NCBI RefSeq assembly: GCF_036898825.1
Contig: NZ_JARUND010000001.1
Span: 4,402,001 to 4,466,000, forward strand
Origin: Streptomyces sp. B21-083
GTDB taxonomy: Bacteria > Actinomycetota > Actinomycetes > Streptomycetales > Streptomycetaceae
Direction of reading: 5' to 3'
DNA length: 64,000 bases
A program made the position numbers and the translations under genes. Below are positions 10,185 through 33,899 of the stretch, in pieces. Every line of letters starts with the position of its first letter. Within the stretch, counting starts at the first letter, position 1. The notes under the pieces are model-generated. The model did no database searches. It was given only the letters and a program-made list of their open reading frames with translations, and was not told the DNA's origin.

Positions 10185-10249
10185 GGTCCGCCGCGCCCAC
10201 CCGGTCCGCCCTTGCTTAGAGCGCACTCCACGACGTTGGCTGAGGAGTC

Positions 10250-11242: not shown

Positions 11243-11260
11243 GGCGTCGACACCGGCCGC

Positions 11261-11326: not shown

Positions 11327-11351
11327 GACGCGAGCCGGAATCAGGCTCGCG

Positions 11352-11441
11352 TCACCGCCCGACCGCCGCCGCCACCCCGACCACGACGAACATCAGCACG
11401 AGCGCACCGGCCATCACCCGGTTCCGGATTTTCGGATTCAC
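11352..11441 (-). CDS. 29-residue hydrophobic microprotein
   Basis: A 30-codon frame (GTG 11441 to TGA) reading VNPKIRNRVMAGALVLMF then VVVGVAAAVGR: a short basic N-terminus followed by one clean membrane-spanning segment. Codons are GC-rich at position three where possible. It starts 10 bp after the stop of thpR, consistent with translational coupling at the end of the marR-MFS-thpR unit. I believe similar microproteins occur beside thpR in other streptomycetes, but this is from memory. A role as a small membrane regulator is only a guess. Confidence 0.6.
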   Translation of the reverse strand: MNPKIRNRVMAGALVLMFVVVGVAAAVGR

Positions 11442-11451
11442 GCGGTCGAGC

Positions 11452-12033
11452 CTAACCGGCCGCGCCCAGGGACCAACGGGCGACCACCTCGTACCGGGGC
11501 TGTTCCCCCGGCACCCCCGACTTCGGCAGATCGCTGCGTACGAGCGCCAGGTCGTCCACCGTCCACGTGCGGCTCGTGAACGCGTCCAGGGTCTCGACGT
11601 ACGGCCGCACCTCGAAGGCCTCGCGGCTGCGTGCCACGGTGAGGTGGGCCTGGTAGCGCCGGTGCTCCCCCATGTCGACGCCCGCCTTCCGGCCTGCCGC
11701 CTCCGCCCGGTCGGCCAGCAGGCGCAGCACGTTCACCTCACCGGCGGCGCCCGCCCACAGCGCCCGCCCGTGCCCGAACTGCCCGCCGCCGCACACCGAC
11801 AGCGTGAACGCGTCCGTACGGTGGGCGGCCCGCTCCAGCCGTTCCGACAGCTCCGGTACGACGTCCTCGTCCACCTCGCCGTAGAAGGCGAGGGTGAAGT
11901 GCCAGCCGGGTGCGCCGGTCCAGCGCAGCCCGTCCGCACCCGGCAGGCCCCTCAACCCGGCCACCGCGACGGCGAGTTGCTCGGCGACATCCTCGGGCGG
12001 CAGTACGGCGGCGAACAGCCGGACCGTGTTCAT
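11452..12033 (-). CDS. thpR: RNA 2',3'-cyclic phosphodiesterase (2H/LigT family)
   Basis: A 193-residue 2H phosphoesterase: the two catalytic HxTx motifs are in GWHFTLAFYG and YQAHLTVAR. In bacteria ThpR opens 2',3'-cyclic phosphates at RNA ends and was first seen as a 2'-5' RNA ligase. The start at ATG 12033 gives MNTVRLFAAVLPP, matching the family; ATG 12057 would add 8 residues. It lies 38 bp after the MFS gene on the same strand and is probably co-transcribed with marR and the MFS gene. Confidence 0.9.
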   Translation of the reverse strand: MNTVRLFAAVLPPEDVAEQLAVAVAGLRGLPGADGLRWTGAPGWHFTLAFYGEVDEDVVPELSERLERAAHRTDAFTLSVCGGGQFGHGRALWAGAAGEVNVLRLLADRAEAAGRKAGVDMGEHRRYQAHLTVARSREAFEVRPYVETLDAFTSRTWTVDDLALVRSDLPKSGVPGEQPRYEVVARWSLGAAG

Positions 12034-12071
12034 GGCACTCGTGTCACTGGCGCTCATGGCGCTCACCGTAC

Positions 12072-13646
12072 TCACGCCACCGAGGTCACCGGCTCCCGCC
12101 GTTCCTCGTCCTGCTGCTGTGCCTGCTCCTCCCCCGGCCTCCGCTGTGCGTCTTCCTGCCGCTTGACGAGGCTGACGCGCGGATGTCCGGAGTTCCAGCC
12201 GGCGGAGACTCTCAGTCCGCCCACGCGGGCCAGGACCAGGCCGACCGTGAGGGCGGCTGCCGTCGCGACGATGCCGCCGAAGGCGAGGCCGACCCGGGGG
12301 CCGTACGCGTCCGTGATCCAGCCGACCAGCGGTGCGCCCAGCGGCGTACCGCCCATGAAGACCATCATGAACAGGGCCATGACCCGGCCGCGCATGGCGG
12401 GGTCGGTGGCCATCTGGACCGAGGTGTTCGCCGTGACGTTGACCGTGAGGCCGGCGATCCCGATCGGGATCATCAGCAGCGCGAACAGCCACAGGGACGG
12501 GGCCGCCGCGGCGACGATCTCCAGCGCGCCGAAGACCACGGCCGCCGCGACGAGGACGCGCAGCTTCGCCGTGCCGCGCCGGGCGGCGAGCAGGGCGCCC
12601 GCCAGGGAACCGACCGCCATCAGGGTGTTGAAGAAGCTGTACGCGCCGGCGCCGGCGTGGAAGACGTCGTCCGCGTACGCCGAGAGGACGACCGGGAAGT
12701 TGAAGCCGAAGGTGCCGATGAACCCGACGAGGATGATCGGCCAGACCAACTCGGGCCGCCCGGCGACATAGTGCAGACCCTCGCGCAGCTGCCCTTTGGC
12801 GCGCGGTGCCCGCTCCACGGCGATCAGTTCACGGCCGCGCATGAGCAGCAGGGCGGCCATGGGGGCGACGAAGGACAGGCCGTTGAAGAGGAAGGCCCAG
12901 CCCGTGCCGACGCCGGTGATCATCAGACCGGCGACGGCGGGTCCGACGAGGCGTGCGGACTGGAAGTTCGCGGAGTTGAGGCTGACGGCGTTCTGCAGCT
13001 GCCCGGGCTCGACCATCTCGGACACGAAGGACTGCCGGGCCGGGTTGTCGACGACCGTGGCGAGACCGACGGCGAAGGCGGCGAGGTAGACGTGCCATAC
13101 CTCGACGTCACCCGTGAGCGTCAGGGCGGCGAGCGCGAGGCCGGTGACGGCCATCATCGCCTGCGTGACGAGCAGGGTGGGGCGCTTGGGCAGCCGGTCG
13201 ACGAGGACTCCGCCGTACAGCCCGAAGAGCAGCATCGGCAGGAACTGCAGCGCGGTCGTGATGCCCACGGCGGCCGAGGACCCGGTGAGGCTGAGGACCA
13301 GCCAGTCCTGGGCGATGCGCTGCATCCAGGTGCCGGTGTTGGAGACGACCTGGCCGAGGAAGAAGAGGCGGTAGTTCCGCACCCGCAGCGAGCTGAACAT
13401 GGAGGAGCGGGTGGGCGGCGTGGCCGTGGCGACGGCAGCAGGGGTGCGGGAGCCGTGGCGGCCGGAATCCGGCTCGGAGACCGCAGGGGTCGGAGTCGGA
13501 GTGGAAGTGGGAGCGGTGGCGGGATCAGGGACGGGCTGGAGCTCGTGGGCGAGCTGAAGCTCGGGGACGGCCTGGGGATCGGGGACGGGCTGGGGGTCGT
13601 GGGCGGCTGGTGCGGGTGCGGAGTCTGCTCCGGTTCCCGAACTCAA
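12072..13646 (-). CDS. MFS transporter (DHA3/EntS-like) with long disordered N-terminus
   Basis: A 524-residue major facilitator protein with about 12 membrane helices beginning at NYRLFFLGQVVSNTGTWMQRIAQDW, the usual start of the EntS/DHA3-type exporter group. The MFS signature loop is LVDRLPKRPTLLVTQAMM. The first 80 residues are a Pro/Ala/Gln-rich cytoplasmic tail (QPVPDPQAVPELQ) and the C-terminus has a Glu/Gln-rich tail. The start is TTG 13646 with a strong GGAGG 8 bases upstream. It follows a MarR regulator by 28 bp, which suggests export of a toxic small molecule sensed by that regulator. Confidence 0.92.
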   Translation of the reverse strand: MSSGTGADSAPAPAAHDPQPVPDPQAVPELQLAHELQPVPDPATAPTSTPTPTPAVSEPDSGRHGSRTPAAVATATPPTRSSMFSSLRVRNYRLFFLGQVVSNTGTWMQRIAQDWLVLSLTGSSAAVGITTALQFLPMLLFGLYGGVLVDRLPKRPTLLVTQAMMAVTGLALAALTLTGDVEVWHVYLAAFAVGLATVVDNPARQSFVSEMVEPGQLQNAVSLNSANFQSARLVGPAVAGLMITGVGTGWAFLFNGLSFVAPMAALLLMRGRELIAVERAPRAKGQLREGLHYVAGRPELVWPIILVGFIGTFGFNFPVVLSAYADDVFHAGAGAYSFFNTLMAVGSLAGALLAARRGTAKLRVLVAAAVVFGALEIVAAAAPSLWLFALLMIPIGIAGLTVNVTANTSVQMATDPAMRGRVMALFMMVFMGGTPLGAPLVGWITDAYGPRVGLAFGGIVATAAALTVGLVLARVGGLRVSAGWNSGHPRVSLVKRQEDAQRRPGEEQAQQQDEERREPVTSVA

Positions 13647-19004: not shown

Positions 19005-19943
19005 CTACTTCACGTCGATGAAGTCCGCGGCGGCACTCGAACCCACGGTGGTCGCGGTGCCCGCGAAGACGTAGCGGAAGAACCCGTCGACGGTCGCCTT
19101 GACGGTGGTCTTCAGGTCGCCCGAGGCCGTCGTCTTGATGGTCTTGACGACGGTGTAGGCACTGGCCCCGTTCTTACGGAACTGGAGCTGCACCGGCTGG
19201 GTCGCGTACCCGGTGTAGTTGGGCCCGTCCCAGTTGGCGCGGGTCAGCTTGCCGGTGACCGTGATGGTCGCGTTCTTCCTGACCGGCTCCGGCGTGGCGT
19301 TGACCGTCAGCTTGGAGAGACGGCGCACGGTCGTGGTGCCGAGGTCACGCTGGGACTTGATGCCGATCTTGGACGGGTCGATGGTGTCACCCGAGAGATC
19401 CTGGCCGTTGAGGGCGATGGCGAATGCGCCGGCCGTCCAGACGGCCCCGGCGTTGGCGTTGGTCAGGTCACCCTCGGCCGGATAGATGTCGATGTTTGCC
19501 TTGCAGTTCGCGACCGTCGTCGACGCGGCGGTGCAGGTGGCGGGCTTCTCGCCTTGGAGCGCGTTGAGCGATTCGAGATCTTCGTCGTCAGCACCCGTGT
19601 AGAGGATGGGGCCGCTCATGAAGTCGGAGGCCTTGATGTTGACCTCGGTGCCGTGAGTCAGCGTGTAGGTGACCGGGACGACGACGTGCCCGCCGGCACC
19701 AACGTTGATCGACTTGGCGACCTTGAAGTTGGAGAAGGAGACGTTCAGCTCGTACGGCAGGTCACCATCGACAGGCGACGTGACGAACGCGCTCTTGCCT
19801 CCGTTCCCCAGAAACTTCGCGACGGCCGCGCGGTAGGTGGAGTCTCCGCCGGAAGCGTGGACATCGGCCTGCGCGGCCGGCACAGCGAGAGCGGAGAGGG
19901 CCAGGGCGCCGGAGACGGCAGCCACAGTGGCACGTATACGCAT
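19005..19943 (-). CDS. Secreted Ig-like protein, paralog 1 of 3
   Basis: A 312-residue exported protein. The signal peptide MRIRATVAAVSGALALSALA is nearly identical in the three paralogs (here, 20193 and 28599). The C-terminal 100 residues are a conserved beta-rich domain beginning KLTVNATPEPVRKNATITV and ending in a terminal DFIDVK. The middle is variable, with one Cys pair (CTAASTTVANC). Start ATG 19943 has GGGGAA. No cell-wall sorting signal is present, so it is probably released or loosely wall-bound. The function is unknown. A 36-bp box shared by the paralogs lies about 100 bp upstream. Confidence 0.85.
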   Translation of the reverse strand: MRIRATVAAVSGALALSALAVPAAQADVHASGGDSTYRAAVAKFLGNGGKSAFVTSPVDGDLPYELNVSFSNFKVAKSINVGAGGHVVVPVTYTLTHGTEVNIKASDFMSGPILYTGADDEDLESLNALQGEKPATCTAASTTVANCKANIDIYPAEGDLTNANAGAVWTAGAFAIALNGQDLSGDTIDPSKIGIKSQRDLGTTTVRRLSKLTVNATPEPVRKNATITVTGKLTRANWDGPNYTGYATQPVQLQFRKNGASAYTVVKTIKTTASGDLKTTVKATVDGFFRYVFAGTATTVGSSAAADFIDVK

Positions 19944-20044
19944 GCGTGTTCCCCACATGGAGAAGGGACCCGGCGGCGATCGTCCGCATGGCGGCGCGTA
20001 CTCACCCCGGGACCCAGGTGATCGTGGAGCCTGATGGCCCCCGT

Positions 20045-20080
20045 GATCAGATCCACTACGGGAGTGGTTGGTTGTGCGGA
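20045..20080 (-). promoter_or_regulatory. Shared upstream box of secreted paralogs, copy 1
   Basis: A 36-bp block also found at 21226-21261 and 29513-29548, beginning GATCAGATCC here and containing TGGTTGTGCGGA. It lies the same distance upstream of each paralog and is better conserved than the DNA around it, which suggests a common promoter or operator. Confidence 0.6.
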
Positions 20081-20117
20081 GGGGACGTAATTTTGCACAC
20101 CTCTTGCACACAGACCC

Positions 20118-20154
20118 GCCGCCGACCCGTAGAAAACGGAGGGTCGACGGCGGC
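20118..20154 (-). terminator. Imperfect hairpin after paralog 2
   Basis: GCCGCCG and ACCC (20118-20128) pair with GGGT and CGGCGGC (20141-20154) with a 3-base bulge. It lies about 40 bp beyond the stop of the minus-strand gene ending at 20193. Confidence 0.45.
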
Positions 20155-20192
20155 TGCGTACGTTTCCCAACTAGCAACACATATGCCGGCGG

Positions 20193-21125
20193 CTACTTCA
20201 CATCGACGAAGTCGGGCGTGGCACCGATGGCGCCGGTGGTCGCCGTACCCGTGAAGACGTACCGGAAGTACCCGTCGGAGGCGGCCTTGACGGTGGTCTT
20301 CAGGTCGCCCTTGGTGGTCGCCTTGATGGTCTTGACGACGGTGTAGGCGCTCGTCCCGTTCTTACGGAACTGCAGCTGCACCGGCTGGGTCGCGTACCCG
20401 GTGTAGTTGGCGCCGTCCCAGTTGGCGCGGGTCAGCTTGCCGGTGACCGTGATGGTCGCGTTCTTCCTGACCGGCTCCGGGGTGGCGTTGACCGTCAGCT
20501 TCGCGGCACGCAGGAGGCTGGGACCGGCGAGGCGGTCCTTCTCGACGACGCCGACCTTCGAGGCGTCGAAGTCGTCGCTGCCGAGGTCCTGGCCGTTCCA
20601 TGCCTCCGCGTAGGCGAACGCCTTCCATTTCCCGGCGCTCTCGTTGAACAGGTCTCGGGTCGGGTGGATGACGATCGACTGGGTGCAGTTGGCGACGGTC
20701 GTCGACGCGGCAGTGCAGTGGGCCCAGTCGTCGCCGAACAGCCCGAAGTCGGAATCCATGTACGAGGCGCCGTAGTACAGCTCGACGTCGGTGAAGAAGT
20801 CCTCGGCGGTGATGTCGACGTCGGCGCCGTGGGTCAGCGTGTAGGTGATCGGCACGGTCACCGTGCCGGTGACGCCCGCGACGATCGACTTACCGTTGTT
20901 GATCTTGATGTTGGAGAAGGAGGCGTTCAGGGCGTACGGCGTGCCGGCGTCGTCAGCGACGGCCGAGCTACTGAACGCGGACTTGCCGGGGGCACCCTGG
21001 CCGGCCGCGAGCATCTTGACCGCGTCCACGCGGGACACGGAACCGTCGGCCTGCGCGGCAGGCACGGCAAAGGCGGAGAGGGCCAGGGCGCCGGAGACGG
21101 CGGCCACGGTGGCACGTATGCGCAT
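20193..21125 (-). CDS. Secreted Ig-like protein, paralog 2 of 3
   Basis: A 310-residue exported protein closely related to the gene at 19005: the same signal peptide (MRIRATVAAVSGALALSAFA), a similar layout with a middle Cys pair (CTAASTTVANC), and a C-terminal domain almost identical at DNA level (KLTVNATPEPVRKNATITV, TGYATQPVQLQFRKNG). The two lie in tandem, so recent duplication is clear. ATG 21125 has GGGGAA upstream. Variable N-terminal half with constant signal and C-terminal parts suggests either diversifying selection or domain shuffling. The function is unknown. Confidence 0.85.
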   Translation of the reverse strand: MRIRATVAAVSGALALSAFAVPAAQADGSVSRVDAVKMLAAGQGAPGKSAFSSSAVADDAGTPYALNASFSNIKINNGKSIVAGVTGTVTVPITYTLTHGADVDITAEDFFTDVELYYGASYMDSDFGLFGDDWAHCTAASTTVANCTQSIVIHPTRDLFNESAGKWKAFAYAEAWNGQDLGSDDFDASKVGVVEKDRLAGPSLLRAAKLTVNATPEPVRKNATITVTGKLTRANWDGANYTGYATQPVQLQFRKNGTSAYTVVKTIKATTKGDLKTTVKAASDGYFRYVFTGTATTGAIGATPDFVDVK

Positions 21126-21225
21126 GCGTTTCCCCAAGTGGAGAAAGGGGGCCCGACGGCGGTCGTCCGCACGGCTTGTCGTCACACCGGGGGCCCAAGT
21201 GATCGTTGAGTCAGTTGACCCGCAT

Positions 21226-21388: not shown

Positions 21389-22975
21389 CTACACGGCCGG
21401 CCACATGGTGCGGCTAGCGGCCAGTCCACCCTTGCCGTCACCGGGATAGAACCGCAGATCTCCAGCGGTACGCATAGCGGCGATGTCGGCCTTACCGTCA
21501 CCATTGAAGTCGCCGCCCAGGACAGGACGTTCACTCGTCCACGTCTTGTCGGGCCACATGGAGCGAGGCTGGTCGAAGGAACCGTCGGCCTTGCCCAGGT
21601 AGAGATGCAGGGCGCCATCGGCGGCGACAGCTGCGATGTCATCCCTGCCGTCCCCATTGAAGTCAGCTGTGGCGATGTGCTTCTTCTTCCACGTCTTGTC
21701 GGGCCACATCACCTTCTTCTGGTTGACGAGATTGCCGTCGGCGTCCCTCTTGTACGTGTACAGCGAGCCATCAGGCCACTGGAAGAGAACGGTGTCGCGG
21801 CCGGTGGCACCTGTCCGCATCCGGGCGGCGGGCAGCGCGTTCTTCCATGTGGCGTCCGCCCACAGCGTGCTGGCCCCGTAGCCGAGGAGAACGTTGGGGT
21901 TTCCCCACAGCTCACGTCGCTTCACCAGGTGCAAGGTGCCGTCGTCCCTCGCACCAACCATCTCGATGCCTTTGCCCTCGTCGAAGTCACCGGCGACGAA
22001 CTGCCGGCCAACGAGCGAACCGGCGTTGCTCTGCAACTGGCCGAATTCGAGGGTGCCGTCCGGTCGCCCGTAGAAGACCTCCACTTCTCCACTCGTCATG
22101 AGGGAAGCAACGTCCGTACGACCGTCGCCGTTGAAGTCGGCCGCCGACATCGCATCGGTGACGTGCGCTTTCCGGGACGTGAGGCGAACCTGCTGCACCC
22201 AACTCACGACGTCGTCGACGCGTGTGGCGAGAGCACCGGTGCGTGTCTCGTCGGAGTTGAAGCAGCCGCCGCCCCATGAGGCAGTAACCACCCCGACCAC
22301 TTTGTCGTCGCGAAGCACCGGGGCGCCCGCGTCGCCCCGGCAGAGGGCGGCCCCTCCAGCCGCCGTGGGCGAGATGGCAAGGGTGGACGGGTTCACGGTG
22401 TCCACACCGAAGGCACCGGTATGCGCGCGGCCTGGGACCCATTCGTCCTTCGTGCGCCCGAAACCAACCGCCCTCAACTGCTCGCCCTGGGCTGTCTCAC
22501 CGTTCCCGACACCTACCGGCAATTCGTCCGGGAAGGGTCCGTCGAGCGGATTCTGAGTCGTGGTCGCGTTGTCGATTCGGGCCATGACCAGGTCACGATC
22601 CGGATGCGGGACCAGTTGCAGGACTTTCTGCTTGGCTGTCTGCGCGGCCGTGGGGTGATCGGCTCCGAGGGTCACGACGGTGGTGTCCGCCGGCGCTCCC
22701 GCCGCGATCTTGAAGCCCTGTTGAGGATCGGCCGCGAAGCAACTGGCAGCAGTGAGCACCCACTGCTGGTCGACCAGCGTGCCGGAGCAACTCCGCTCCC
22801 TGTCGGTACCGGTCCCGATGTGAAGCTTGACGGCGAACTGGTCCTCGGTGTCGCCGACTTGGCCGCCTGTGACCGACTGCGCCGCCGGTGCGACCAACAG
22901 GCTGGTCGTGAGGCCGGCCGCCAGGAATCCAGTAGTCCACACCGTGCGCGTCCTGCGCGGGCGGGCGTTCATCAT
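21389..22975 (-). CDS. Secreted trypsin-fold pseudoprotease with FG-GAP repeats
   Basis: A 528-residue exported protein: signal peptide to about residue 34, an S1 trypsin-like domain at 35-275, then FG-GAP/VCBS repeats with Ca2+-binding loops (DFNGDGRTDV, DFNGDGRDDI, DFNGDGKADI). Two triad positions are changed. The His of LTAAHC is Ser 78 (WVLTAASCF), and the nucleophile of GDSGGP is Ala 216 (CRGDAGAP); only Asp 128 (HPDRDLV) remains. Peptidase activity is therefore unlikely, and a binding role is more probable. Paired Cys around both motifs are kept, so the fold should be intact. It is followed on the same strand by paralog 2 and preceded by the small secreted gene at 23121. Confidence 0.9.
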   Translation of the reverse strand: MMNARPRRTRTVWTTGFLAAGLTTSLLVAPAAQSVTGGQVGDTEDQFAVKLHIGTGTDRERSCSGTLVDQQWVLTAASCFAADPQQGFKIAAGAPADTTVVTLGADHPTAAQTAKQKVLQLVPHPDRDLVMARIDNATTTQNPLDGPFPDELPVGVGNGETAQGEQLRAVGFGRTKDEWVPGRAHTGAFGVDTVNPSTLAISPTAAGGAALCRGDAGAPVLRDDKVVGVVTASWGGGCFNSDETRTGALATRVDDVVSWVQQVRLTSRKAHVTDAMSAADFNGDGRTDVASLMTSGEVEVFYGRPDGTLEFGQLQSNAGSLVGRQFVAGDFDEGKGIEMVGARDDGTLHLVKRRELWGNPNVLLGYGASTLWADATWKNALPAARMRTGATGRDTVLFQWPDGSLYTYKRDADGNLVNQKKVMWPDKTWKKKHIATADFNGDGRDDIAAVAADGALHLYLGKADGSFDQPRSMWPDKTWTSERPVLGGDFNGDGKADIAAMRTAGDLRFYPGDGKGGLAASRTMWPAV

Positions 22976-23120: not shown

Positions 23121-23627
23121 TCAGCCAGTCACTCGAAGCTCGACGAGCACCGACCTGGCACCCCCTGGGGCGGCTTCTCCGACCGACTCGGTCTGGTCCT
23201 TGGCTACGTCGACCGTCGTGGTCCGGCCGTTGGCGGTGAGGTCAGCGCTGATCGGGTGATCCGCGGCCTGCATCGCGAAGACCCTGGGAAGTTCCAGGGT
23301 GAGGCGGCCTGTCTTACCAAGAGCCTTGAAGCAGTAGGTTCCCTCGCGACCGACGGAATCGTCCGCGACAGCCAGAACCCGGATTTGCTGGGCGGCCGAA
23401 TCGCACTCGGCCAGCAGGATGCGGCCGTCACCCTTCTTCAACTTGATGCCTTTTTCCGTCAGGATTCGGCTGGCACCCGGGTAGTCGAAGTTCTCGATGG
23501 CCACAGGCGGAGCCTCAGAAGTCGGAGGCTGAGTTGGATCGTCAGCAGAAGCAATGGTGACGCCAGCCAGGATCGCAAGGAATCCCAGGATTCCAGAAAC
23601 GGCGAGACTTCGAGCACGGAAAGGCAA
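23121..23627 (-). CDS. Small secreted protein of unknown function
   Basis: A 168-residue protein with a signal peptide (residues 1-28, SLAVSGILGFLAILAGVTIASA) and a compact beta-rich body containing two Cys (LLAECDSAAQ and GTYCFKALGKTG) likely to form a disulphide. It contains FDYPGASRILTEKGIKLKKG, a pattern I recall from streptomycete secreted proteins encoded beside trypsin-like/FG-GAP genes, but no function is known. It lies 145 bp upstream of the pseudoprotease gene on the same strand and is divergent from the polymorphic toxin gene. A co-secreted partner of one of these is a reasonable guess. Confidence 0.75.
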   Translation of the reverse strand: MPFRARSLAVSGILGFLAILAGVTIASADDPTQPPTSEAPPVAIENFDYPGASRILTEKGIKLKKGDGRILLAECDSAAQQIRVLAVADDSVGREGTYCFKALGKTGRLTLELPRVFAMQAADHPISADLTANGRTTTVDVAKDQTESVGEAAPGGARSVLVELRVTG

Positions 23628-24057: not shown

Positions 24058-27000
24058 GTGAATCGAAGAACTGACCAGTTCGATACTGCCGGTAAAGCGG
24101 CACATCTGATACGCAGAACGGCGTTGAGTCTGCTGCCTTTGGCCTTGGGTGCCAGCCTGCTCAGCTCCCCTCCTTCTTCTGCTGCTGAACTGCCCGAGGG
24201 AGCAGCAAGTTCCGTCACCGCGTCGGAAGTGGCCTCGGCCGACCGCAGCATGGTCGTCGACTATTGGCGAGGCGGTGGGCCCATCGTCAAGGAGGCGGCG
24301 CAGGCCGCACTGACCGGAAGCAACGCCGACGTGGCAGCCTTCCTCGTGGTAGCGGACGACCTAACCTTCCAGGACCAGCGGGTCACCGTCGCTCGGATCG
24401 CTTCGGTGGGCGGTCCTGAGCTGTTGACCGCAGCTCGCACAGCTCTGTTCGGTACCCCTGAGGCACTGTGGGACTTCCTACACGAGGGCTCGGAGGCACG
24501 GTCAGAGCAGGATAATCGAGTGCGGGTCGCCCAAATCATGGGCACAAGCGGGCCGAACGTCCAGGACGCTGGCAACGCCGCACTCGACGGCACGCCCGAC
24601 GACGTCCTGAAATTCCTCCGCGAGGGCCAGTACAAGCAACGCGAGCAGGACGAGCGTGTCCAGGTGGCCCAGATCATGGGTACGGGCGGCACCAACGTGC
24701 AACTCGCTGCACGCCTCGCGCTGAACGGCAGCGCCGCCGACATCCGGGAGTTCCTGGATGTCGGCCAGTACGTCGCGCTCGCTAAGGACCAGGAACACGC
24801 TACCGTCGCGCAACTCGCCCAACAGGCGAAGGAAGCCGGCAAGCTCGCCGCCAAAGAAACGGCGGCGGCGAAGGCTGAGTCCGCCAAGGCCGTGCAGGCC
24901 TCGCAGCTCGCCAAGGAAGCCGCGCTGAAGGCCGCCACTGAAGCCGAGGCAGCCAAGGGCGACACTGCCAAGGCCGCGAGCGCCGCAGGTCGGGCAGCCT
25001 CCGCAGCGACCCAGGCTGCCGCCTCCGCACAGACTGCGATCGAGGCCTCCCGCGCCGCGAACAGCTCGGCACGTGTCGCCGCGAACGCCGCCTCCCAGGC
25101 GGCCGCGGCTGCAGCCGGCGCCTCCCAGGCCGCATCCAAGGCACGTAACGCCGCCGCCGACGCGGCGGTGGACGCAAACAGCGCTCAGGCTGCAAGGCAA
25201 GCCGCTGAGACCGCCCGTACGGCAGCCAAGGGTGCCGACCTCGCCGCCGACGCCGCCGACCAGGCGGCCATTGCGGCCGACGAGGCAGGCAAGGCCGCCC
25301 ACTCTGCCGCGAGTGCGGGCGCCAACGCACAACTCGCCGCCGACGCCGCAGTCGAGGCCAGTGGCTACGCCGGCCAGTCCAGCGCCGCTGCCGCAGAGGC
25401 ACGCGCCGCAGCCGCCACCGCCCGGCGCCATGCCGCCGAGGCAAACCGTGCCGCTGCCGCCGCCGAGGCTCTGGCAGCAAAGGCCGCCAAGGCGGCCCGC
25501 GAGGCGGGAGTAGCCGCCAGGTCGGCGGCCACGCACGCGAACAACGCGGCCACCTTCGCTGAGGAAGCGGCTGCGGACGCGGGCAACGCCGCGAAGGCCG
25601 CAGGCCGTTCCACGAACCACGCCAAAGCGGCCACCGATGCCGCAAACGTGGCCAGCGCCGCCGTGGCCACGGCCCAGGACATCTACAAGATCGCCCGCGA
25701 GGTGGAGGCCGAGGAACTGCTCGGCCGTACCAACGCCGGCATCGAGCGCGCCCGGGACGACCAGGCGGCAGCCAGCGCCCGTACGACCGGACAGGCCGCG
25801 CTGGAGCAGGCGGTCAAGGACCGGGAAACCGAGCGGAACCGGCTGGTCGCCGAGGCAGCGAAGCCCGAAGCAGCCCTGTCCACCATCGCCGCCCAGGGTC
25901 GCAAGTTGGCCGTCCTGGTGATGCAGAACGGCACGGCCTGGGGGCGGGCCGCCGCCGAGTACGCCCTCACCGGCACCGACGACGTTGTCATCGACTACCT
26001 CCGCAACGGCTGGACGACCGCCAAGGAGGGTGACGACCGCTCCTATGTCGAGCGCTTGGCGGAGGAGAGTGAGACCGAGGAGGTACGGAACGCCGCCGAG
26101 GTCGCCCTCGACGGCAACGCCGCCACCGTCACGGAGTTCATCGACAACGGGCAGTACAAGGTCGCCGCGCAGAGCATGCGAGTCGCCATCGCTCGAGTGA
26201 TCGGCGATGCAGGCCCCGTCCTCAAGGAGTCCGGCCTCGCTGCTCTCAACTCGGACGACACCAAGAAGTTCAGCAAGTTCCTGACCAGAACTCAGTTCAC
26301 CGCGCGGACGCAGGACGAGCGGGTCCGTGCGGCACAGTTGTTCGACACCGGCAGTCCGGAGGTGAAATCGGCAGCCCGGATCGCCCTGGAGGCCTCACCC
26401 CAGTCACTGCACACCTTCATCGTCTCCGGCCAGTACAAGGCCCAGCGCAAGGACTACTTGGCCGCCACCCACGTGGCCCAGATCCAGAAGATGATCTCGG
26501 ACGCGGCGAAGGTCGCGGCAACCGCGCAGCAGAACGCCGCCACCGCCCAGAAAGTAGCCGCAACCGCGCGCAAGGCAGCCGCCGAGGCCACCGAGTGGGC
26601 GAAGAAAGCAAGCGACTCCTCGGCCAAGGCCAAGACGTACGCCGACGAAGCTGCTCAGCACGCCAAAGCCGCCGAGGCCTCCGCAGCAAGTGCCGCCGCA
26701 TCCGCGAAGACGGCTCGGAACGCGGCCGATAGTTCGGACGCAGCGGCTTCCGACGCCGCCAGGTCGGCGGCCGACGCCACGCTCTCCTCGGAGATAGCTC
26801 AGGCCAGCGCCTCCACGGCATGGCACTACGCCGACGAGGCGAAGCAATCAGCCGTCGACGCGGGCAAAGACGCGGAAGCCGCGCTGAAGGCGTCCACCGA
26901 GGCGTTCACCATCGCGGTCCAGAAGGAGCGGGAGGAAGCCGAAGCTCGGCGCAAGGCCGCCGTCGCGGCCAAGGAAAAGGCGAAGAACGACGCGGGCGCC

Positions 27001-28089
27001 CAAGCTCGCCAGCTCTACCACTGCCAGCAGGGCTTCGTCCCGTGCGACCCCGAGGGCTTCGCCCGCTGGTGCCAGCAGAGCGAGATTTACTGCGACATCC
27101 TGGCCTACGGCGAGGAACTCGGCGCCGCGGCAGAGCAACTCTGGAATATCGAGAAGGAAATCCTCGGCCTGGGACAGTTCGAAGCCTGCATACAGGAAAA
27201 GGATTTCGAAAACTGCGGCAGCCTCGCGGCGGACGCGCTCGGCGGCGCCAAATTCAGAGCCCTGGAAAAGGCCTACGACAAACTGAAGTTGCTGAAGCGC
27301 GTCTGCCGCACTAAATGCTTCCCGGCCGGCACCAAGGTCCTCATGGGAGACGGCTCCAGGAAGAGCATCGAGGATATCCATCCAGGTGATCGCGTACTGG
27401 CCACGGAGCCGGTCTCCGGACGGACAGCCGTCAGCGAGGTGACCCGCCAGATCGTCACCGGGGACGACAAGTACTTCAACGAGCTGACGATCACCACCCG
27501 CACCGGCGCCGAGAAGCTCACCGCGACCTACGAACACCCGTTCTGGAGCCCGTCGCGGCAGGGCTGGATAGAGGCAGGCGCACTGACGTCGGGCACGACA
27601 CTCCTGACCAGCGACAAGTCAACGGTCCAGGTACAGAAGAACCGCTCCTTTATCCACCGGCAGACCACCTACAACCTCACCATCGCGGACATCCACACGT
27701 ACTATGTGCTCGCCGGGTCCACTCCGATTCTCGTTCACAACAGCGGAGGCCACACTCCAGCCGAGGGGATGGTCACTGTTGGCCGCTGGATGTCGTCGGC
27801 AGAGCATCAGGCGATGACGGAGACGGGAAAGGTGCAGCGCGGTGGAGGTGGCTTCACTTACGTCGTGTATCCGGCAAGTCGAGACGCGTACATATCTGCG
27901 CGCCCCGGATCCGTGTACGTAGAATTCGACGTCCCAAAGTCGACACTTATTCCCGGCGGCAGGCCAGGGGACTTCAAGATGTCAGACTCCGATACAATCT
28001 TCGCTCGACTGGCAGCAAAAAAGGGGAACCCTGTCCCTCAACTCCCCGAGGCGAAGAACGTCCAGATGGGAGGCTGGGGATGTCCCTAG
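24058..28089 (+). CDS. Secreted polymorphic toxin: ALF repeats, Ala-rich coils, Hint domain, TreTu-like tip
   Basis: 1343 residues. A signal peptide (about 18-45, RRTALSLLPLALGASLLSS) is followed by ALF-type helical repeats of roughly 40 residues (VRVAQIMGTSGPNVQDAGNA) at 65-245 and again at 610-790. Long Ala/Lys/Glu-rich coiled stretches lie at 250-560 and 800-970. A Hint autoprocessing domain runs from Cys 1087 (CFPAGTKVLMGDG) to His-Asn 1227-1228 (PILVHN), followed by Ser. The 115-residue tip starts near VGRWMSSAEHQAMTETGKVQ and contains GSVYVEFDVP, resembling TreTu ADP-ribosyltransferase toxins that modify EF-Tu; this is recognition from memory. The Hint domain should release the tip after export. 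GTG 24058 is the likely start. The immunity gene overlaps the 3' end by 10 bp. Confidence 0.9.
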   Translation: MNRRTDQFDTAGKAAHLIRRTALSLLPLALGASLLSSPPSSAAELPEGAASSVTASEVASADRSMVVDYWRGGGPIVKEAAQAALTGSNADVAAFLVVADDLTFQDQRVTVARIASVGGPELLTAARTALFGTPEALWDFLHEGSEARSEQDNRVRVAQIMGTSGPNVQDAGNAALDGTPDDVLKFLREGQYKQREQDERVQVAQIMGTGGTNVQLAARLALNGSAADIREFLDVGQYVALAKDQEHATVAQLAQQAKEAGKLAAKETAAAKAESAKAVQASQLAKEAALKAATEAEAAKGDTAKAASAAGRAASAATQAAASAQTAIEASRAANSSARVAANAASQAAAAAAGASQAASKARNAAADAAVDANSAQAARQAAETARTAAKGADLAADAADQAAIAADEAGKAAHSAASAGANAQLAADAAVEASGYAGQSSAAAAEARAAAATARRHAAEANRAAAAAEALAAKAAKAAREAGVAARSAATHANNAATFAEEAAADAGNAAKAAGRSTNHAKAATDAANVASAAVATAQDIYKIAREVEAEELLGRTNAGIERARDDQAAASARTTGQAALEQAVKDRETERNRLVAEAAKPEAALSTIAAQGRKLAVLVMQNGTAWGRAAAEYALTGTDDVVIDYLRNGWTTAKEGDDRSYVERLAEESETEEVRNAAEVALDGNAATVTEFIDNGQYKVAAQSMRVAIARVIGDAGPVLKESGLAALNSDDTKKFSKFLTRTQFTARTQDERVRAAQLFDTGSPEVKSAARIALEASPQSLHTFIVSGQYKAQRKDYLAATHVAQIQKMISDAAKVAATAQQNAATAQKVAATARKAAAEATEWAKKASDSSAKAKTYADEAAQHAKAAEASAASAAASAKTARNAADSSDAAASDAARSAADATLSSEIAQASASTAWHYADEAKQSAVDAGKDAEAALKASTEAFTIAVQKEREEAEARRKAAVAAKEKAKNDAGAQARQLYHCQQGFVPCDPEGFARWCQQSEIYCDILAYGEELGAAAEQLWNIEKEILGLGQFEACIQEKDFENCGSLAADALGGAKFRALEKAYDKLKLLKRVCRTKCFPAGTKVLMGDGSRKSIEDIHPGDRVLATEPVSGRTAVSEVTRQIVTGDDKYFNELTITTRTGAEKLTATYEHPFWSPSRQGWIEAGALTSGTTLLTSDKSTVQVQKNRSFIHRQTTYNLTIADIHTYYVLAGSTPILVHNSGGHTPAEGMVTVGRWMSSAEHQAMTETGKVQRGGGGFTYVVYPASRDAYISARPGSVYVEFDVPKSTLIPGGRPGDFKMSDSDTIFARLAAKKGNPVPQLPEAKNVQMGGWGCP

Positions 28090-28394
28090 GCCGCGCGCTA
28101 CTGGAGCGCACCCAAGAGTGGATTGGTCGGGAAATTCACAGAAACAACACTCTGCGGGAGATTTCACAGATAGAGATATTCCCTAGCGAGGGAGAACCAA
28201 GATCTGTGAGTTGGACCCTCGATGGCGCCAATTTCATGGCCCAAGTAGTCGTGTGGAATAGCGGAGAATTCGAGGAAGATCTCGCGAATGTTAAAACCGG
28301 CCAGGTTCAGACACGAAGCGGCCACCTGGCGTCCATCGATGATCTTGAATCCCGCCTAATGGTCGCTCGCGATTGGGCTATCCAGGATATTTAA
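28080..28394 (+). CDS. Probable immunity protein (TriTu-like)
   Basis: A 104-residue cytoplasmic protein starting inside the last codons of the toxin gene (ATG 28080, toxin stop 28087-28089), the arrangement expected for an immunity gene. It is acidic, with a beta-rich middle (SVSWTLDGANFMAQVVVWNSG) and a helical C-terminus (DDLESRLMVARDWAIQDI). The DNA is markedly lower in GC than its surroundings, as is common for swapped toxin tips and their immunity genes. Assignment to the TriTu family is from recall and position; binding to the tip is inferred. Confidence 0.75.
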   Translation: MSLGRALLERTQEWIGREIHRNNTLREISQIEIFPSEGEPRSVSWTLDGANFMAQVVVWNSGEFEEDLANVKTGQVQTRSGHLASIDDLESRLMVARDWAIQDI

Positions 28395-28598: not shown

Positions 28599-29399
28599 CT
28601 ACTTCACGTCGATGACGTCCCCGACCGCGTTGATCGGCGCCGTCGTCGACGAGCCCGCGAAGGCGTAGCGGAAGGTGCCGTCGACCGTGGCCTTCACCGT
28701 GGTCTTCAGGGCGCCGCCGGCACCCGCCTTGACCGTCTTGACGGTGGTGAAGGTGGTGGCGCCCTTCTTCTTGAACTGGAGGGTCACCGGGGCGTTGACG
28801 TAGCCCGTGTACTTGCCGGTGTTCCAGTTGGCGCGGGTCAGGGTGCCCTTAACCGTGATGGTCGCGTTCTTCCTGACCGGCTCCGGGGTGGCGTCGGTGG
28901 TCAGCTTCGAGTGGAACTTGATTTGGGAGGTGCCGAGGTTGCCCTGAGCTTTGTAGTCGCCCTCGTCCGTCATGGCGACAGCCACAGCGCCCACGTTCCA
29001 GGAGCGCGCATCAGTGTTGCGGAGCCTGGCGTCCTCACCGCTGGTGTGCAGGTCGAAGGAGGACTTGCAGCTGGCGGTGGTCGACGACGTGGCCGTGCAG
29101 GAAGCGGGGTCTTCACCCCCGAGGCGAACCTTCGTCACGTCTATGGTCGTACCGGCGTAGAGGAACGGAAGGACGAGGAGCTTGTCCGAGCTGATGTCCA
29201 GTCCGGCCGCGTGCTTGAACGTGTACGTCACCGGCACCGAGGTGGTCCCCGTGGCGCGGGCGACGATCGGCTTGCCGTTGTTGATGGTCACCTTGGTGAA
29301 GGTGACGTCGGGCGCCGTGGCGGCCTGCGCGGCGGGCACGACGAAGGCGGAGAGGGCCAGGGCGCCGGAGACGGCGACCACAGTGGCACGAATGCGCAT
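28599..29399 (-). CDS. Secreted Ig-like protein, paralog 3 of 3
   Basis: A 266-residue exported protein of the same family as the genes at 19005 and 20193: signal peptide MRIRATVVAVSGALALSAFV, a middle Cys pair, a conserved KLTTDATPEPVRKNATITV segment and a terminal GDVIDVK. It is shorter in its variable half and more diverged in the C-terminal domain, so it is an older copy. ATG 29399 has GGGGAA. It lies across the polymorphic toxin genes from the other two copies, with which it shares a 36-bp upstream box. The function is unknown. Confidence 0.85.
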   Translation of the reverse strand: MRIRATVVAVSGALALSAFVVPAAQAATAPDVTFTKVTINNGKPIVARATGTTSVPVTYTFKHAAGLDISSDKLLVLPFLYAGTTIDVTKVRLGGEDPASCTATSSTTASCKSSFDLHTSGEDARLRNTDARSWNVGAVAVAMTDEGDYKAQGNLGTSQIKFHSKLTTDATPEPVRKNATITVKGTLTRANWNTGKYTGYVNAPVTLQFKKKGATTFTTVKTVKAGAGGALKTTVKATVDGTFRYAFAGSSTTAPINAVGDVIDVK

Positions 29400-29512
29400 G
29401 CGTTTCCCCAAGTGGAGAAAGGGGGCCCGGTGGTGCTCGTCCGTACGGATCCCTCCGTACCGCGTGCAGTCGCACCCGGGCCCAAATCATCTGGGAGTCT
29501 CTTGACTCGCTC

Positions 29513-29680: not shown

Positions 29681-32600
29681 TCAGTCGAACCAGCGGTCCC
29701 GCGCCAGTTCGGTCGTCCTCGACGGGTCCTCGATCAGGGCCGCCACCTCGAACCGCCGGGGCCACTGTCCGGCCGCCCAGGCGAGCCCGGCCGCGACGCC
29801 CTCCAGGGTGGCGGCGTGGACCACACCGTCCCGCGTCCTGCGCCAGTCCAGCTCCACGCCGTCGACGACGAGGTCCTCGTGCTCGACGTAGGTGGCCGGG
29901 GTCGCCGGACCGAGCAGGACCCGTACCGACTCCGGTACGTCGTGCTCCGCACCCTCCGACGTCACCTCGCCCGTGACCGACTCGCTCAGCCGCCGTACCT
30001 GGAACAGCTCGGCCAGCTCGGCCGCCTTCGCCGGGCGTACGGGGAGCAGCGGCACCCCCGCTGTGAACGGCAGCAGGTCGGGTGAGTCGACCACCACGGC
30101 GTCCGCCGCGTCCACGACCTCCACGTGGCCGTCGACCACCGCCCGCAAGTCGTCGGGCAGCGTGACCTGTTCCGGGTCGAGGTCGGCCAACGCGCCGTAG
30201 AGGGCGTGCAGTTGGGCGCCGGTGACCTCCCGGTCGGGGTCGGCGAGACGGTCCAGCAGTTCGGCCGCGCCGCCCGGCTCGTCGAGGAGGGCGGCGACCG
30301 TCGTGCGTACGCCCAGGGCCCGCAGCACCTGCTCGTCGTCGAACCCGGTGGCGTCGGCCTCCTCGTACAGGCAGCGCAGCAGCGGGTCGCCGCCCGCCGC
30401 CAGGAGACCGGCCGGACGCCGGCCGTCCAGCACCGGGTTTCCGCGCAACCACCAGGCGGTGTACGGCCGTACGAGTTCATGCGTGCCGTCGGGCAGCAGG
30501 ACACGCACCGGCTGGACGATCGCGTCCCGCAGGGGCGGCTGGGCGAGCAGGGCGAGGGCCTGGGGCCAGCGATCGTCGTCCACGAGGTCGAGGTCGCGTA
30601 CGGCAACCAGTTCCGTGGCGACGGGAGGTACGGGCGAGTCGGGGAAGCGGTCGAGGATGTCCTCGCTCCACACATCCACGGCGTCGAGCAGGCCCGCGTC
30701 GTCGGGTTCGGCGAAGTCGCTGTCCCGGGGGTCCAGTTCGTCCGGGTCGAGGACAACATCGGTGGCGCGTACGAGGGCGAAGGTCGCGAGGACTCCGCAG
30801 GCGGCGAGCGGCTGCTCGCCCCACCTGTCCGCCAACTCTCCGTCCACCAAGGCAAGTTCGCCTTCTCGGATCACCTGGGCGAACGAGCTGCCGGGGAGGA
30901 CGAGTTCACCGGCGGGGGCCAACTCCCCTTCCTCGTCGGGGAGGGCGAGGGCGCCGAGCCACGGTTCGTCACCGGGTTCGAGGCCCGCGTCGCGTACGAG
31001 GGCGAGGACCGTGTCGGCCAACTCCTCGGCGTCGGGAGTGTCTTCGTCGTCCCACGACAGGCTGCGGGCGTCCTCGTCGAGCGAGGCGGCGACGGCGGCC
31101 CGTACCTGCGGGGTGGTGAGGACGGCGCGCGGGGTGGCCGGGAGGGCGCCGAGCTTCTCCAGGAGCGGGTGGGCGGCGTCCGGGTGGGCGACCTTGAGGC
31201 CGAGGCGGGCCAGGGTCTCCGGGGCGGCGGCCCCCACCTGACCGCCGGTGGGCAGCAGCACCTGCCGGGGCCCGATGGTCGTACGCCCGTCGGCGAGCGG
31301 TACGGGCAGCCCGGACAGCCGGTCGGGGTCGACGCCGGCCAGGCTGTCGTACAGCCGGTGCCACCACTCGGGTGCCTTTTCCAGGCCGGCGAGCCGGTCG
31401 ACAGCGTCGGTGAGGGGGACGCGGGCGACCCCCAACGTCCGTAGCTCCACCCGGCGTTCGAGCCCGGCGGGCAGCAGCGTGGGCAGTACCTCGGCGAGGA
31501 CAAGGACGGTGTCGGCCCCGGCGCCCTCGACCACCTCGGCGTCCCGGGGGCGCAGGGCGGAGGGCAGTTCCTCGTCGTCCCCCGGGTCGAGCGCGGGCGG
31601 GAGGAAGGCGGTGCGCGGCAACCGTTCGAGGATCGCGTGCCGCAACTGACCGTCCAGCTCGCCCTTGCCCAGCGGGCCGGGCACGAGCGCGATGATGCCC
31701 TCCCCCACCGGGCTCCAGTCGGCGAGGAGTTCGGTGTAGGCGTCGGCGGCGCGCTGCACGAGGAAGTCGGTGAGCGGGCCCGGCGCGGCATGCCGGCGGG
31801 CGGTGTCCAGCGGGAGCGAGGCGATGAGCAGCGCCGGTACGCCCAGCGGCTCGTCGCTCGGTGTGGGCGCGTGCACGACGGGGCTGGTCCGGGGCGGTAC
31901 GGGAGTGCCGTCGGCGTCGACGGGCACGGCCCAGGTGACCGACCAGTGCGGACGCAGCCTCTCCTCGATCGGCCGCCCGACCAGCAGGGCGGCGTCCAGG
32001 GGCCCGTGCGCGGAGACGGTACGCCAACGGCTCGTACCGTCGCGGGAGTCCTCCACGAGGGTCAGCGAGGCGTCGGTACGGCGGCTGAGGGTGCGCGTCT
32101 GCTCCCCCACCTCGATGACGACCTCTTCCAGACCGGGCAGCGTCAGAAGAAGCGCGTCGTCGACGCCGTTCAGCAGCCGTTCCGCGAGATCCTCGGCGGC
32201 GGTGTCGCGCAGGGGGAGGATGACGGCCGTGTCGTACGGGGCCGGGGCGGTGCCCTCGGCGGCGAACGGCAGCCGGAGAAGGGGCACATGGCCGTCGCGA
32301 CGGCGGACCTCGTCACCGAGTCCGGGGCTGTGCCGGGCGGTCTCGGCCGCCAGCTCGCGCGCCTCGGCGAGCGCCCACCGCACACCACCGTGCCGCCCGA
32401 CGACGGCGGGCTCGTCACTGACGGCGAGAACGGCGGCGAAGCCGACACCGAACCGTCCGACGGCGCCCGTCCCCTTGCCGTCCTTGCCGCCGTCCTGGAC
32501 GTCCCGCTTCGCGGAGGCGCGCAGCGTGGACAGGGACTCGACTCCGGTGGCGTCCAGCGGGGCACCGGTGTTGGCGGCGACGAGGACGCCCTCGCGCAGG

Positions 32601-32833
32601 GTGAGCCGGAACCTGCCGGGCACCCCGGCCCGAGCGGCGGCGTCGGCGGCGTTCTGGGCGAGCTCGACGACGAGCCGGTCCCGGTACCCACCGAGGACGA
32701 GATCCTCCTCGGCGTTGGCGTCCTCACGGAACCGGGCGGGACTGGTCGCCCAGGCATCCAGAACACCCCGGCGCAGACGGGCCGTACCGAAAGGATCCGC
32801 GCCCTCAGCTGCAGGTCGCACGAACTTGCTCAC
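29681..32833 (-). CDS. Sacsin N-terminal-like GHKL ATPase, 1050 residues
   Basis: The N-terminal 240 residues have a Bergerat ATP-binding fold: N-box VVELAQNAADAA (Glu and Asn for Mg-ATP), G1 box LVAANTGAPLD and G2 box GRFGVGFAAVL, the arrangement of sacsin/Hsp90-like ATPases. The remaining 800 residues are acidic, leucine-rich and without motifs I know. The protein is cytoplasmic. GTG 32833 has GGAGA upstream. It lies in a core-looking region rather than the accessory island. Sacsin-like proteins act in protein quality control in eukaryotes and some bacterial GHKL giants act in defence; neither role can be shown here. Confidence 0.85.
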   Translation of the reverse strand: MSKFVRPAAEGADPFGTARLRRGVLDAWATSPARFREDANAEEDLVLGGYRDRLVVELAQNAADAAARAGVPGRFRLTLREGVLVAANTGAPLDATGVESLSTLRASAKRDVQDGGKDGKGTGAVGRFGVGFAAVLAVSDEPAVVGRHGGVRWALAEARELAAETARHSPGLGDEVRRRDGHVPLLRLPFAAEGTAPAPYDTAVILPLRDTAAEDLAERLLNGVDDALLLTLPGLEEVVIEVGEQTRTLSRRTDASLTLVEDSRDGTSRWRTVSAHGPLDAALLVGRPIEERLRPHWSVTWAVPVDADGTPVPPRTSPVVHAPTPSDEPLGVPALLIASLPLDTARRHAAPGPLTDFLVQRAADAYTELLADWSPVGEGIIALVPGPLGKGELDGQLRHAILERLPRTAFLPPALDPGDDEELPSALRPRDAEVVEGAGADTVLVLAEVLPTLLPAGLERRVELRTLGVARVPLTDAVDRLAGLEKAPEWWHRLYDSLAGVDPDRLSGLPVPLADGRTTIGPRQVLLPTGGQVGAAAPETLARLGLKVAHPDAAHPLLEKLGALPATPRAVLTTPQVRAAVAASLDEDARSLSWDDEDTPDAEELADTVLALVRDAGLEPGDEPWLGALALPDEEGELAPAGELVLPGSSFAQVIREGELALVDGELADRWGEQPLAACGVLATFALVRATDVVLDPDELDPRDSDFAEPDDAGLLDAVDVWSEDILDRFPDSPVPPVATELVAVRDLDLVDDDRWPQALALLAQPPLRDAIVQPVRVLLPDGTHELVRPYTAWWLRGNPVLDGRRPAGLLAAGGDPLLRCLYEEADATGFDDEQVLRALGVRTTVAALLDEPGGAAELLDRLADPDREVTGAQLHALYGALADLDPEQVTLPDDLRAVVDGHVEVVDAADAVVVDSPDLLPFTAGVPLLPVRPAKAAELAELFQVRRLSESVTGEVTSEGAEHDVPESVRVLLGPATPATYVEHEDLVVDGVELDWRRTRDGVVHAATLEGVAAGLAWAAGQWPRRFEVAALIEDPSRTTELARDRWFD

Positions 32834-32839
32834 GTACGT

Positions 32840-33013
32840 TCACTCTCCATCATCGGCGTGAGCAAGAAGGTACCGCGCGCCGGACAGCGCCCCCGCCCAC
32901 CGGGCCTGTTCGCCTGCGGAGGCGCCCCTTACCATTCCCTCCGGATCACGCCCGAGGCGGCGCCGGTCCGTGAACCAGGTAGCAAGTACCTGTTCCTCAG
33001 GGGGGATTTCCAT
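32840..33013 (-). CDS. Possible small acidic protein upstream of the sacsin-like gene
   Basis: A 57-residue frame (MEIPPEEQVLATWFTDRRR... to LLAHADDGE) ends 6 bp before the sacsin-like gene, as expected for translational coupling. Its ATG pairs base-to-base with the ATG of the divergent SPFH gene (CATG at 33011-33014). Third-position GC is only moderate, so coding status is uncertain. Confidence 0.35.
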   Translation of the reverse strand: MEIPPEEQVLATWFTDRRRLGRDPEGMVRGASAGEQARWAGALSGARYLLAHADDGE

Positions 33014-33899
33014 GTTCGTGCTGTCCATACTGCTGCTCATATCGGCGGTCGTGCTCTTTTTCGTAGGCCGGGGCCGAGACGTCGGCGGCTGGAAGATCGG
33101 GGCGGCGCTCAGTGCCGTGGCCGCCGTGCTTGCCGGTGTCTTCGCGTGTGTCCATGTCGTGAGCGCCTACGAGGTCGGGGTGCCGGTGACCTTCGGCAAG
33201 GTCGGGAAACCGATGACCTCCGGCGTCCAGTTCAAGTCGCCGTTCACCGATGTCACCTCCTTCTCCACCCGCCCGGTGGACCTGGACCTCTACGACAAGA
33301 GCGTGGTCGAGGTCCGCTCCTCGCAGGGCGGGGTGCTGTACGCGGACGTCACCATCAAGTGGGCCGTCATCCCGGCCAAGGCGGTCGAGCTGTACCGGCT
33401 GGCGGGCAGTGAGGAAGCCGTCGAGGAACGGCTGGTGCTGCCGGACAGCCGCGAGATCATCCGTAACGTCTTCGCGAAGCACACCAGCGAGGAAGGCTAC
33501 GCCTCCGCCCGTGAGCAGATCGGCTCGCAGATCGCCGCCCTCATCAAGGAGCGTCTGGCCCCGCGCGGGATCGACGTCACCAACGTCAATCTGCGCAACG
33601 TGAGGCCGTCGGACAAGCTGCAGGACCAGATCGACAAGAAGATCCAGCAGGAGCAGGCCACCGAGCGGGCCGTCGAGGGGGCGCGTACGGCCAAGGCGGA
33701 GGCCGAGCGCAAGCGCATCGAGGCGGAGGGCACCGCCCGCGCCAACGAGATCCTCGCGAAGTCGCTGAGCGACAAGGTGCTGTACAACCAGTGCCTGGAG
33801 GCCTACAAGGAAGCCGCCAGGGCCAACCCGGTGTACGCGGTGCCCTGCGGCACGAACGCGAACGGGACGCCCGTCATCGTGAACAGCGGCAAGAACTAG
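33012..33899 (+). CDS. SPFH/band 7 (prohibitin-like) membrane protein
   Basis: A 295-residue protein with two N-terminal membrane helices (MFVLSILLLISAVVLFFVG and a second at about 28-50), an SPFH domain (GVPVTFGKVGKPMTSGVQF, YADVTIKWAVI), then a charged coiled coil (EQATERAVEGARTAKAEAER). SPFH proteins form oligomeric cages that organise membrane microdomains and often protect membrane proteins. ATG 33012 has GGGGGGA 6 bases upstream, which rules out the in-frame start at 32970. It is monocistronic, with a strong terminator 18 bp downstream. The partner is unknown. Confidence 0.9.
   Translation: MFVLSILLLISAVVLFFVGRGRDVGGWKIGAALSAVAAVLAGVFACVHVVSAYEVGVPVTFGKVGKPMTSGVQFKSPFTDVTSFSTRPVDLDLYDKSVVEVRSSQGGVLYADVTIKWAVIPAKAVELYRLAGSEEAVEERLVLPDSREIIRNVFAKHTSEEGYASAREQIGSQIAALIKERLAPRGIDVTNVNLRNVRPSDKLQDQIDKKIQQEQATERAVEGARTAKAEAERKRIEAEGTARANEILAKSLSDKVLYNQCLEAYKEAARANPVYAVPCGTNANGTPVIVNSGKN

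Follow-up and report, generated by a model that had tools for sequence, protein, structure and literature searches.

A probable umbrella toxin particle of Streptomyces with a TreTu-type ADP-ribosyltransferase tip

What carries a polymorphic toxin of the soil bacterium Streptomyces sp. B21-083 to its target, and what would it do there? The question is raised by a 64,000-nucleotide stretch of contig NZ_JARUND010000001.1 (positions 4,402,001 to 4,466,000, hereafter the window), in which an open reading frame (ORF) of 1343 aa with a GTG start (24058..28089, + strand) overlaps by 10 nt a downstream ORF of 104 aa with an ATG start (28080..28394, +). A sequence-only reading had described the long protein as a lone toxin exported by its own signal, with ALF blocks, a Hint domain ending in HN-S and a TreTu-like tip, followed by an immunity gene. 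The coordinates and anatomy that it gave for both ORFs agree with our ORF calls, and its domain assignments were borne out by profile or fold comparison, but the toxin is not alone: umbB and umbA, which that reading had missed, are encoded just upstream. From sequence and fold comparison, the locus very probably encodes an umbrella (Umb) toxin particle with a TreTu-type ADP-ribosyltransferase killing tip.

The umbrella particle genes

In a phmmer search of solved structures, residues 36-1234 of the 1343-aa protein, Hint domain included, matched UmbC1 of Streptomyces coelicolor (PDB 8w20_A) with 672 bits. The adaptor gene umbB (168 aa, 23121..23627, - strand) matched 8w20_B (E 1.9e-19), and umbA (528 aa, 21389..22975, -), which encodes a dead trypsin domain and an FG-GAP propeller lectin, matched 8w20_C (E 1.6e-128). 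Because all three subunits match the solved particle, we read the 1343-aa protein as the umbrella core protein, UmbC, and its gene as umbC. Published umbrella loci were delimited by an UmbB encoded no more than ten genes from UmbC (PMC11062931); here umbB adjoins umbC.

The anatomy of UmbC follows that of the solved protein. Pfam placed eight ALF stretches on it (220.6 bits), and the scores for ALF, PT-HINT and TreTu_C are far above chance. Reading along the + strand, a putative N-terminal export signal (about residues 1-45, 24058..24192), seen by eye as a hydrophobic stretch after Arg-Arg 19-20, is followed by ring half 1 with ALF1-4 (about residues 46-250, 24193..24807), the Ala-rich stalk of coil 1 (about 251-600, 24808..25857), ring half 2 with ALF5-8 (about 601-790, 25858..26427) and the Ala-rich stalk of coil 2 (about 791-995, 26428..27042), the ring halves being placed by Pfam and the coils by alignment to 8w20_A. 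A Cys-bearing segment (about 996-1084, 27043..27309) joins the stalk to the Hint domain (1085-1228, 27310..27741), and the tip (1229-1343, 27742..28086) closes the protein. Scans for promoters and terminators near umbC returned no usable result.

Binding of UmbB is reported to be set by residue 4 of each ALF repeat, with ALF6 a non-binder (PMC11062931). In the window UmbC this residue is Val in ALF2, 3, 4, 7 and 8 and Ser in ALF6, and on that basis five UmbB spokes are predicted, on ALF2, 3, 4, 7 and 8. The same position was compared across 48 distinct UmbC, taken from the window and 58 fetched regions that came from the listed ALF matches, the ALF matches of this genome and a TreTu search. 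ALF matches were chosen with frames of at least 1048 aa. Filtering by size and score left 49 frames, of which one was a duplicate and was dropped; L055 and L075 are examples of broken or short frames of UmbC that this filter removed. Position 4 is hydrophobic (V, I, L, M, F or A) in ALF2 of 39/48 UmbC, in ALF3 and ALF4 of all 48, and in ALF7 and ALF8 of 47/48 each; in ALF6 it is hydrophobic in 18/48, 13 of them with Ala.

The partner proteins also carry the residues expected of particle subunits. UmbA has Trypsin (65.5 bits) and FG-GAP domains in Pfam, and its catalytic triad is broken, with the His replaced by S78 and the Ser by A216, D128 being kept. Its R174 aligns to Arg156 of UmbA1, and E45 in the AIEN motif of UmbB aligns to E48 of UmbB1; this Arg and this Glu are the residues described for UmbA-UmbB binding (PMC11062931). 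Across 49 aligned UmbA rows, in which the window is counted twice and overlapping regions are possibly repeated, the catalytic His is present in 0/49, the Ser in 1/49, the Asp in 48/49 and the binding Arg in 49/49. A regular expression for the UmbB motif matched 13 of 36 UmbB-like frames and was not used as a count. Both umbB and umbA were found within the fetched piece at 41 of the 47 loci with a full UmbC.

The tip, its antidote and their exchange between carriers

The tip is TreTu by Pfam, by sequence and by fold. TreTu_C matched residues 1238-1336 with 119.1-124.4 bits (E 1.4e-34, cut-off 27), and structural comparison returned the TreTu ADP-ribosyltransferase fold, with weaker matches to tRNA 2'-phosphotransferases and other Rhs toxin domains. 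R1243 and E1289 are invariant in a 25-row tip alignment, and their likeness to the corresponding residues of R-S-E type enzymes (PMC13324451) makes them putative catalytic residues. The genome has two EF-Tu genes above the family cut-off, and both EF-Tu copies carry the P-loop G-x-x-D-H-G-K-T; since this target P-loop is present in the host itself, the producer would need an antidote.

The 104-aa protein belongs to the TriTu immunity family by fold (Foldseek). A TriTu profile search of the genome gave one match, at 25.1 bits, and among seven proteins compared a precomputed PF24689.2 assignment exists for P0142 (identical to the 104-aa protein), P0144 and P0145, and not for the other four. No export signal was seen on the protein by eye, which fits a cytosolic target.

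Identities along UmbC break sharply at the tip. In the five closest carriers (P0001-P0005), identity to the window UmbC is 80-93% over rings and coils (89-93% in coil 1), 79-84% over the Hint domain and 63-78% over the linker, but falls to 18-19% in the tip; the signal region varies from 0 to 80%. The reverse is seen in an UmbC-TreTu protein of S. halobius (P0009), whose tip is 89% identical while its carrier, ring through Hint, is 40-63% identical; judging by equal identities, it is most likely the same gene as locus L037 of our survey. A further UmbC-TreTu protein, at locus L041 (G018), is 22-58% identical in the carrier and 54% in the tip. Like the window protein, P0009 and L041 combine an umbrella carrier, a Hint domain and a TreTu tip. 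The tip and immunity genes have a guanine-plus-cytosine (GC) content of 56.9%, compared with 69.6% for the window, and only 0.6% of same-size windows are as low. From these diverging identities and the low GC, tip and immunity gene look like a unit exchanged as a cassette, with its boundary at the Hint junction.

Most of the proteins found with the tip are of a different kind. Within the length range covered, the tip matched 22 proteins, 20 of them with PF05593 or PF25023, which we take to be Rhs/YD-repeat domains, 21 with PT-HINT and one (P0009) with ALF. Rhs-type Hint-TreTu proteins of Streptomyces and other actinomycetes (P0121-P0140) resemble the window protein in carrying the tip after a Hint domain, with 66-91% tip identity (85-91% in P0121-P0129), but differ in having no ALF repeats among their listed Pfam domains. 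In two fetched loci of this type, L039 and L040, no match to umbA or umbB was found.

Across 295 Streptomyces genomes, TreTu_C occurred in 10, above the cut-off in 8. The loci fetched comprise three UmbC (the window, L037 and L041), two long Hint proteins without an UmbC match (L039 and L040), one Hint-less protein (L038), two fragments (L042 and L043) and two weak matches (L044 and L045). At L043 (G019, 8310-8686 and 9897-12464) the fragment consists of what is left of a TreTu tip, split over two frames and interrupted by a stop, together with a short piece of Hint. An 856-aa Hint ORF lies 1.2 kb away in the same orientation, and the fragment looks like a displaced, decayed cassette. At L041 (3-2024 and 5186-9442) two umbC stand in tandem: the TreTu UmbC is closely preceded by the end of another UmbC that also bears Hint.

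The Hint domain, the proposed mechanism and its alternatives

PT-HINT matched residues 1101-1229 of UmbC with 70.1 bits (cut-off 27.7). The motif set of PT-HINT domains consists of an N-terminal nucleophile, TxxH and a C-terminal His-Asn, and the window domain has all of it: it begins at C1087, carries T1157 and H1160, and closes with H1227-N1228, after which comes S1229. Hint is present in 30 of the 48 UmbC and absent from 18. T1157, H1160, H1227 and N1228 are invariant in all 30; the domain opens with Cys in 9 and with Ser in 21, and HN is followed by S in 11, A in 8, T in 4, C in 3 and D, I, L or G in one each. Invariant cleavage residues beside a variable +1 residue suggest selection for cutting rather than splicing, and the pattern fits putative C-terminal cleavage better. 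Protein splicing requires a nucleophile directly after HN, and splicing as the general role of this Hint domain was rejected because Ala, Gly, Asp, Ile or Leu follows HN in 12 of the 30.

We asked which tips travel with a Hint domain. Among the 30 Hint-bearing UmbC, three tips are TreTu (the window, L037 and L041); of 25 further tips scanned with Pfam, six matched a toxin family above the cut-off (L054, L056, L057, L067, L071 and L082), three below it (L060, L076 and L089) and 16 none. The families above the cut-off are TreTu, an RNase A type, a ribonuclease, two deaminase families and colicin D. The scan left out the Hint-bearing L077 and L079, the latter with a tip identical to that of L071, and the Hint-less L074, L086 and L090; the 15 Hint-less UmbC that it covered gave one named tip, TNT. 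As a control, DddA (PF14428) had an UmbC-like frame at 1 of 14 loci (L123, with Hint), and so has little bearing on umbrella toxins.

Among 30 ORFs with a four-transmembrane (4TM) tip, examined from 70 matches listed, none has a Hint domain and 29 are UmbC-like, the frame of the remaining one (L120) being too short to show UmbC. Within the 48 UmbC, membrane tips occur in 0/30 with Hint and 3/18 without (Fisher p 0.047, among relatives that are not independent); one of the three, L034, is a weak match of 34.6 bits that a second scan script did not find. A hydropathy script flagged 0/30 Hint-bearing tips and 6/18 C-terminal ends without Hint, and in four of the six (L053, L064, L074 and L081) the flagged stretch lies, by eye, in a Gly-rich segment before the tip; the script missed L034.

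In the mechanism that we propose, UmbC would be exported and its eight ALF repeats would form a ring, with ALF2, 3, 4, 7 and 8 binding UmbB and each UmbB holding one UmbA, whose propeller would attach to a glycan on the surface of a competing actinomycete. Hint domain and tip would be presented on the stalk, and the tip would somehow reach the target cytosol. Hint would most likely cut after N1228 by asparagine cyclisation and free the 115-residue tip, which would ADP-ribosylate the P-loop of EF-Tu and stop translation; TriTu in the producer cytosol would protect the producer's own EF-Tu.

Several observations weigh against this picture or parts of it. A script for the Tat motif, as a signal defining UmbC, matched 16/48 UmbC, the window protein not among them, although the script was too strict. 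The Pfam TriTu score of the 104-aa protein (25.5 bits) is under the cut-off of 27, its identity to solved TriTu is 12-15%, and the Foldseek match has an E-value of 3.3e-3, so that none is returned at 0.001. EF-Tu as the target is carried over by analogy from the TreTu of Salmonella. The 18 UmbC without Hint make the domain dispensable for umbrella toxins as a class. A strict rule of Hint whenever the target is cytosolic fails: L070 has a TNT tip, presumably NAD-cleaving, and no Hint, and papain-like tips (a label given by eye) with 39% identity occur both with Hint (L052) and without it (L048).

These points bear unequally on the alternatives. A free-standing secreted toxin acting without partners, its neighbours unrelated, would account for the export signal of its own that UmbC shows by eye and for the placing of umbA and umbB on the other strand. 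However, those neighbours match both partner proteins of the solved particle, and umbB lies opposite umbC at 33 of the 41 loci (on the same strand at 7, on both at 1) and likewise at the two other loci of this genome; because umbA and umbB adjoin umbC, we reject this explanation as extremely improbable. That the tip has the TreTu fold but acts on another protein, on RNA or on NAD itself is improbable, though the same fold serves many targets and weaker structural matches, noted above, accompany the one to TreTu.

The most probable rival keeps the umbrella particle and denies that Hint releases the tip inside the target: the domain would be inert, or would cleave while still in the producer or extracellularly, with the tip working while attached or after other proteolysis. 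The Hint-less UmbC speak for it, and the Hint-bearing UmbC1 was unstable near its C-terminal tag (PMC11062931), which may have other causes but would fit Hint cleavage either before or after entry. Against it stand the invariance of the cleavage residues beside a variable +1 residue and the uniform absence of Hint from the membrane-tip ORFs examined, and on balance we hold it to be rather unlikely. For the umbrella particle with a Hint-released tip, the survey suggests a further, tentative generalisation, to which we give somewhat less than even chances: Hint may be a release latch, carried when the tip must act free in the cytosol and dropped for membrane tips, the same tip and antidote jumping between Rhs and umbrella carriers. 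With the cassette boundary at the Hint junction, tip and antidote could therefore move between unrelated delivery machines. If so, Hint cleavage would be an adaptor common to actinobacterial polymorphic toxins and a handle on umbrella-tip entry. The Hint survey yields a testable rule.

The segment between the stalk and the Hint domain or tip (27043-27309 in the window) falls, by eye, into several types across the 48 UmbC, among them Cys-bearing and Gly-rich hydrophobic ones; some types look common to Hint-bearing and Hint-less UmbC and could be an entry module. The idea of a translocation segment common to UmbC and Rhs-type TreTu proteins was dropped: of nine Rhs-type proteins tried, four gave a segment with the motif used, and these four look unrelated by eye, while the UmbC segments are of several types.

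Known systems and genomic setting

Umbrella toxins as a kind are already known, having recently been described as secreted, umbrella-shaped particles used against rival bacteria, related actinomycetes among them; so are ALF repeats combined with HINT and toxin tips, noted in 2012 (PMC3482391). Umbrella loci are reported from nearly 1,000 species, with 77 tip families listed (PMC11062931), and annotated UmbC number 8131 (PMC13274773). The closest solved particle, Umb1 of S. coelicolor (UmbA1-UmbB1-UmbC1, PDB 8w20 and 8w22), resembles the window system in an UmbC with eight ALF repeats, two coils and Hint, in its UmbB, in an UmbA with a dead trypsin domain and propeller lectin, and in the presence of three umb loci per genome. 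The tips differ, that of UmbC1 being a cytosine deaminase (PMC11062931) and that of the window an EF-Tu-type ADP-ribosyltransferase. The tip finds its match in TreTu/TriTu of Salmonella enterica Rhs1 (PDB 7zhl and 7zhm), with 46% tip identity and the same folds for tip and immunity protein, but there the carrier is an Rhs protein of type VI secretion rather than an umbrella UmbC with Hint, and the immunity proteins share 12-15% identity when aligned by structure.

The locus unites two experimentally solved systems, and nearly the same tip appears on two unrelated carriers, Rhs and umbrella. Entry of such a tip had been called undescribed by the sequence-only reading. The delivery vehicle is in print (PMC11062931, PMC13274773), because the toxin is the UmbC core of an umbrella particle, and lectin targeting has been shown for the S. 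coelicolor particle (PMC13274773); what stands of the claim is membrane crossing by toxins with cytoplasmic targets, which the 2024 umbrella paper leaves open (PMC11062931). If EF-Tu is the target, the tip would act on a defined protein in the cytosol and leave an easily measured product, ADP-ribosylated EF-Tu, so that the particle would lend itself well to probing the membrane crossing of umbrella tips. The terms EF-Tu, TreTu and ADP-ribos are not mentioned in the main text of PMC11062931, the supplementary tables lying outside this check, and in the main text of PMC13274773 they are absent apart from one reference title; one literature search returned no publication linking EF-Tu, ADP-ribosyl, umbrella and Streptomyces, whereas two publications mention umbrella toxin together with HINT.

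Three umbA-umbB-umbC loci lie in the genome (10.5 Mb, 5 contigs), each with its umbB and umbC in divergent orientation, besides two smaller or weak ALF traces. The other two UmbC both lack Hint: L034 (C2 4321413-4324958) has the weakly 4TM-like tip described above, and L033 (C2 3831598-3835383) a tip without a Pfam match.

Three paralogous, secreted-looking genes flank the umb locus on both sides (19005-20180, 20193-21185 and 28599-29411, all on the - strand). They share DNA repeats of 277 nt that are 91% and 76% identical and have at most weak DUF7422/DUF5707 matches, and no relatives were found in the other fetched regions; these paralogues may form an array into which the umb locus was inserted. 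Farther along, a 1050-aa ORF (29681-32833, -) looks by eye like an HSP90-type ATPase and is adjoined by a band-7/SPFH-like ORF (32970-33899, +).
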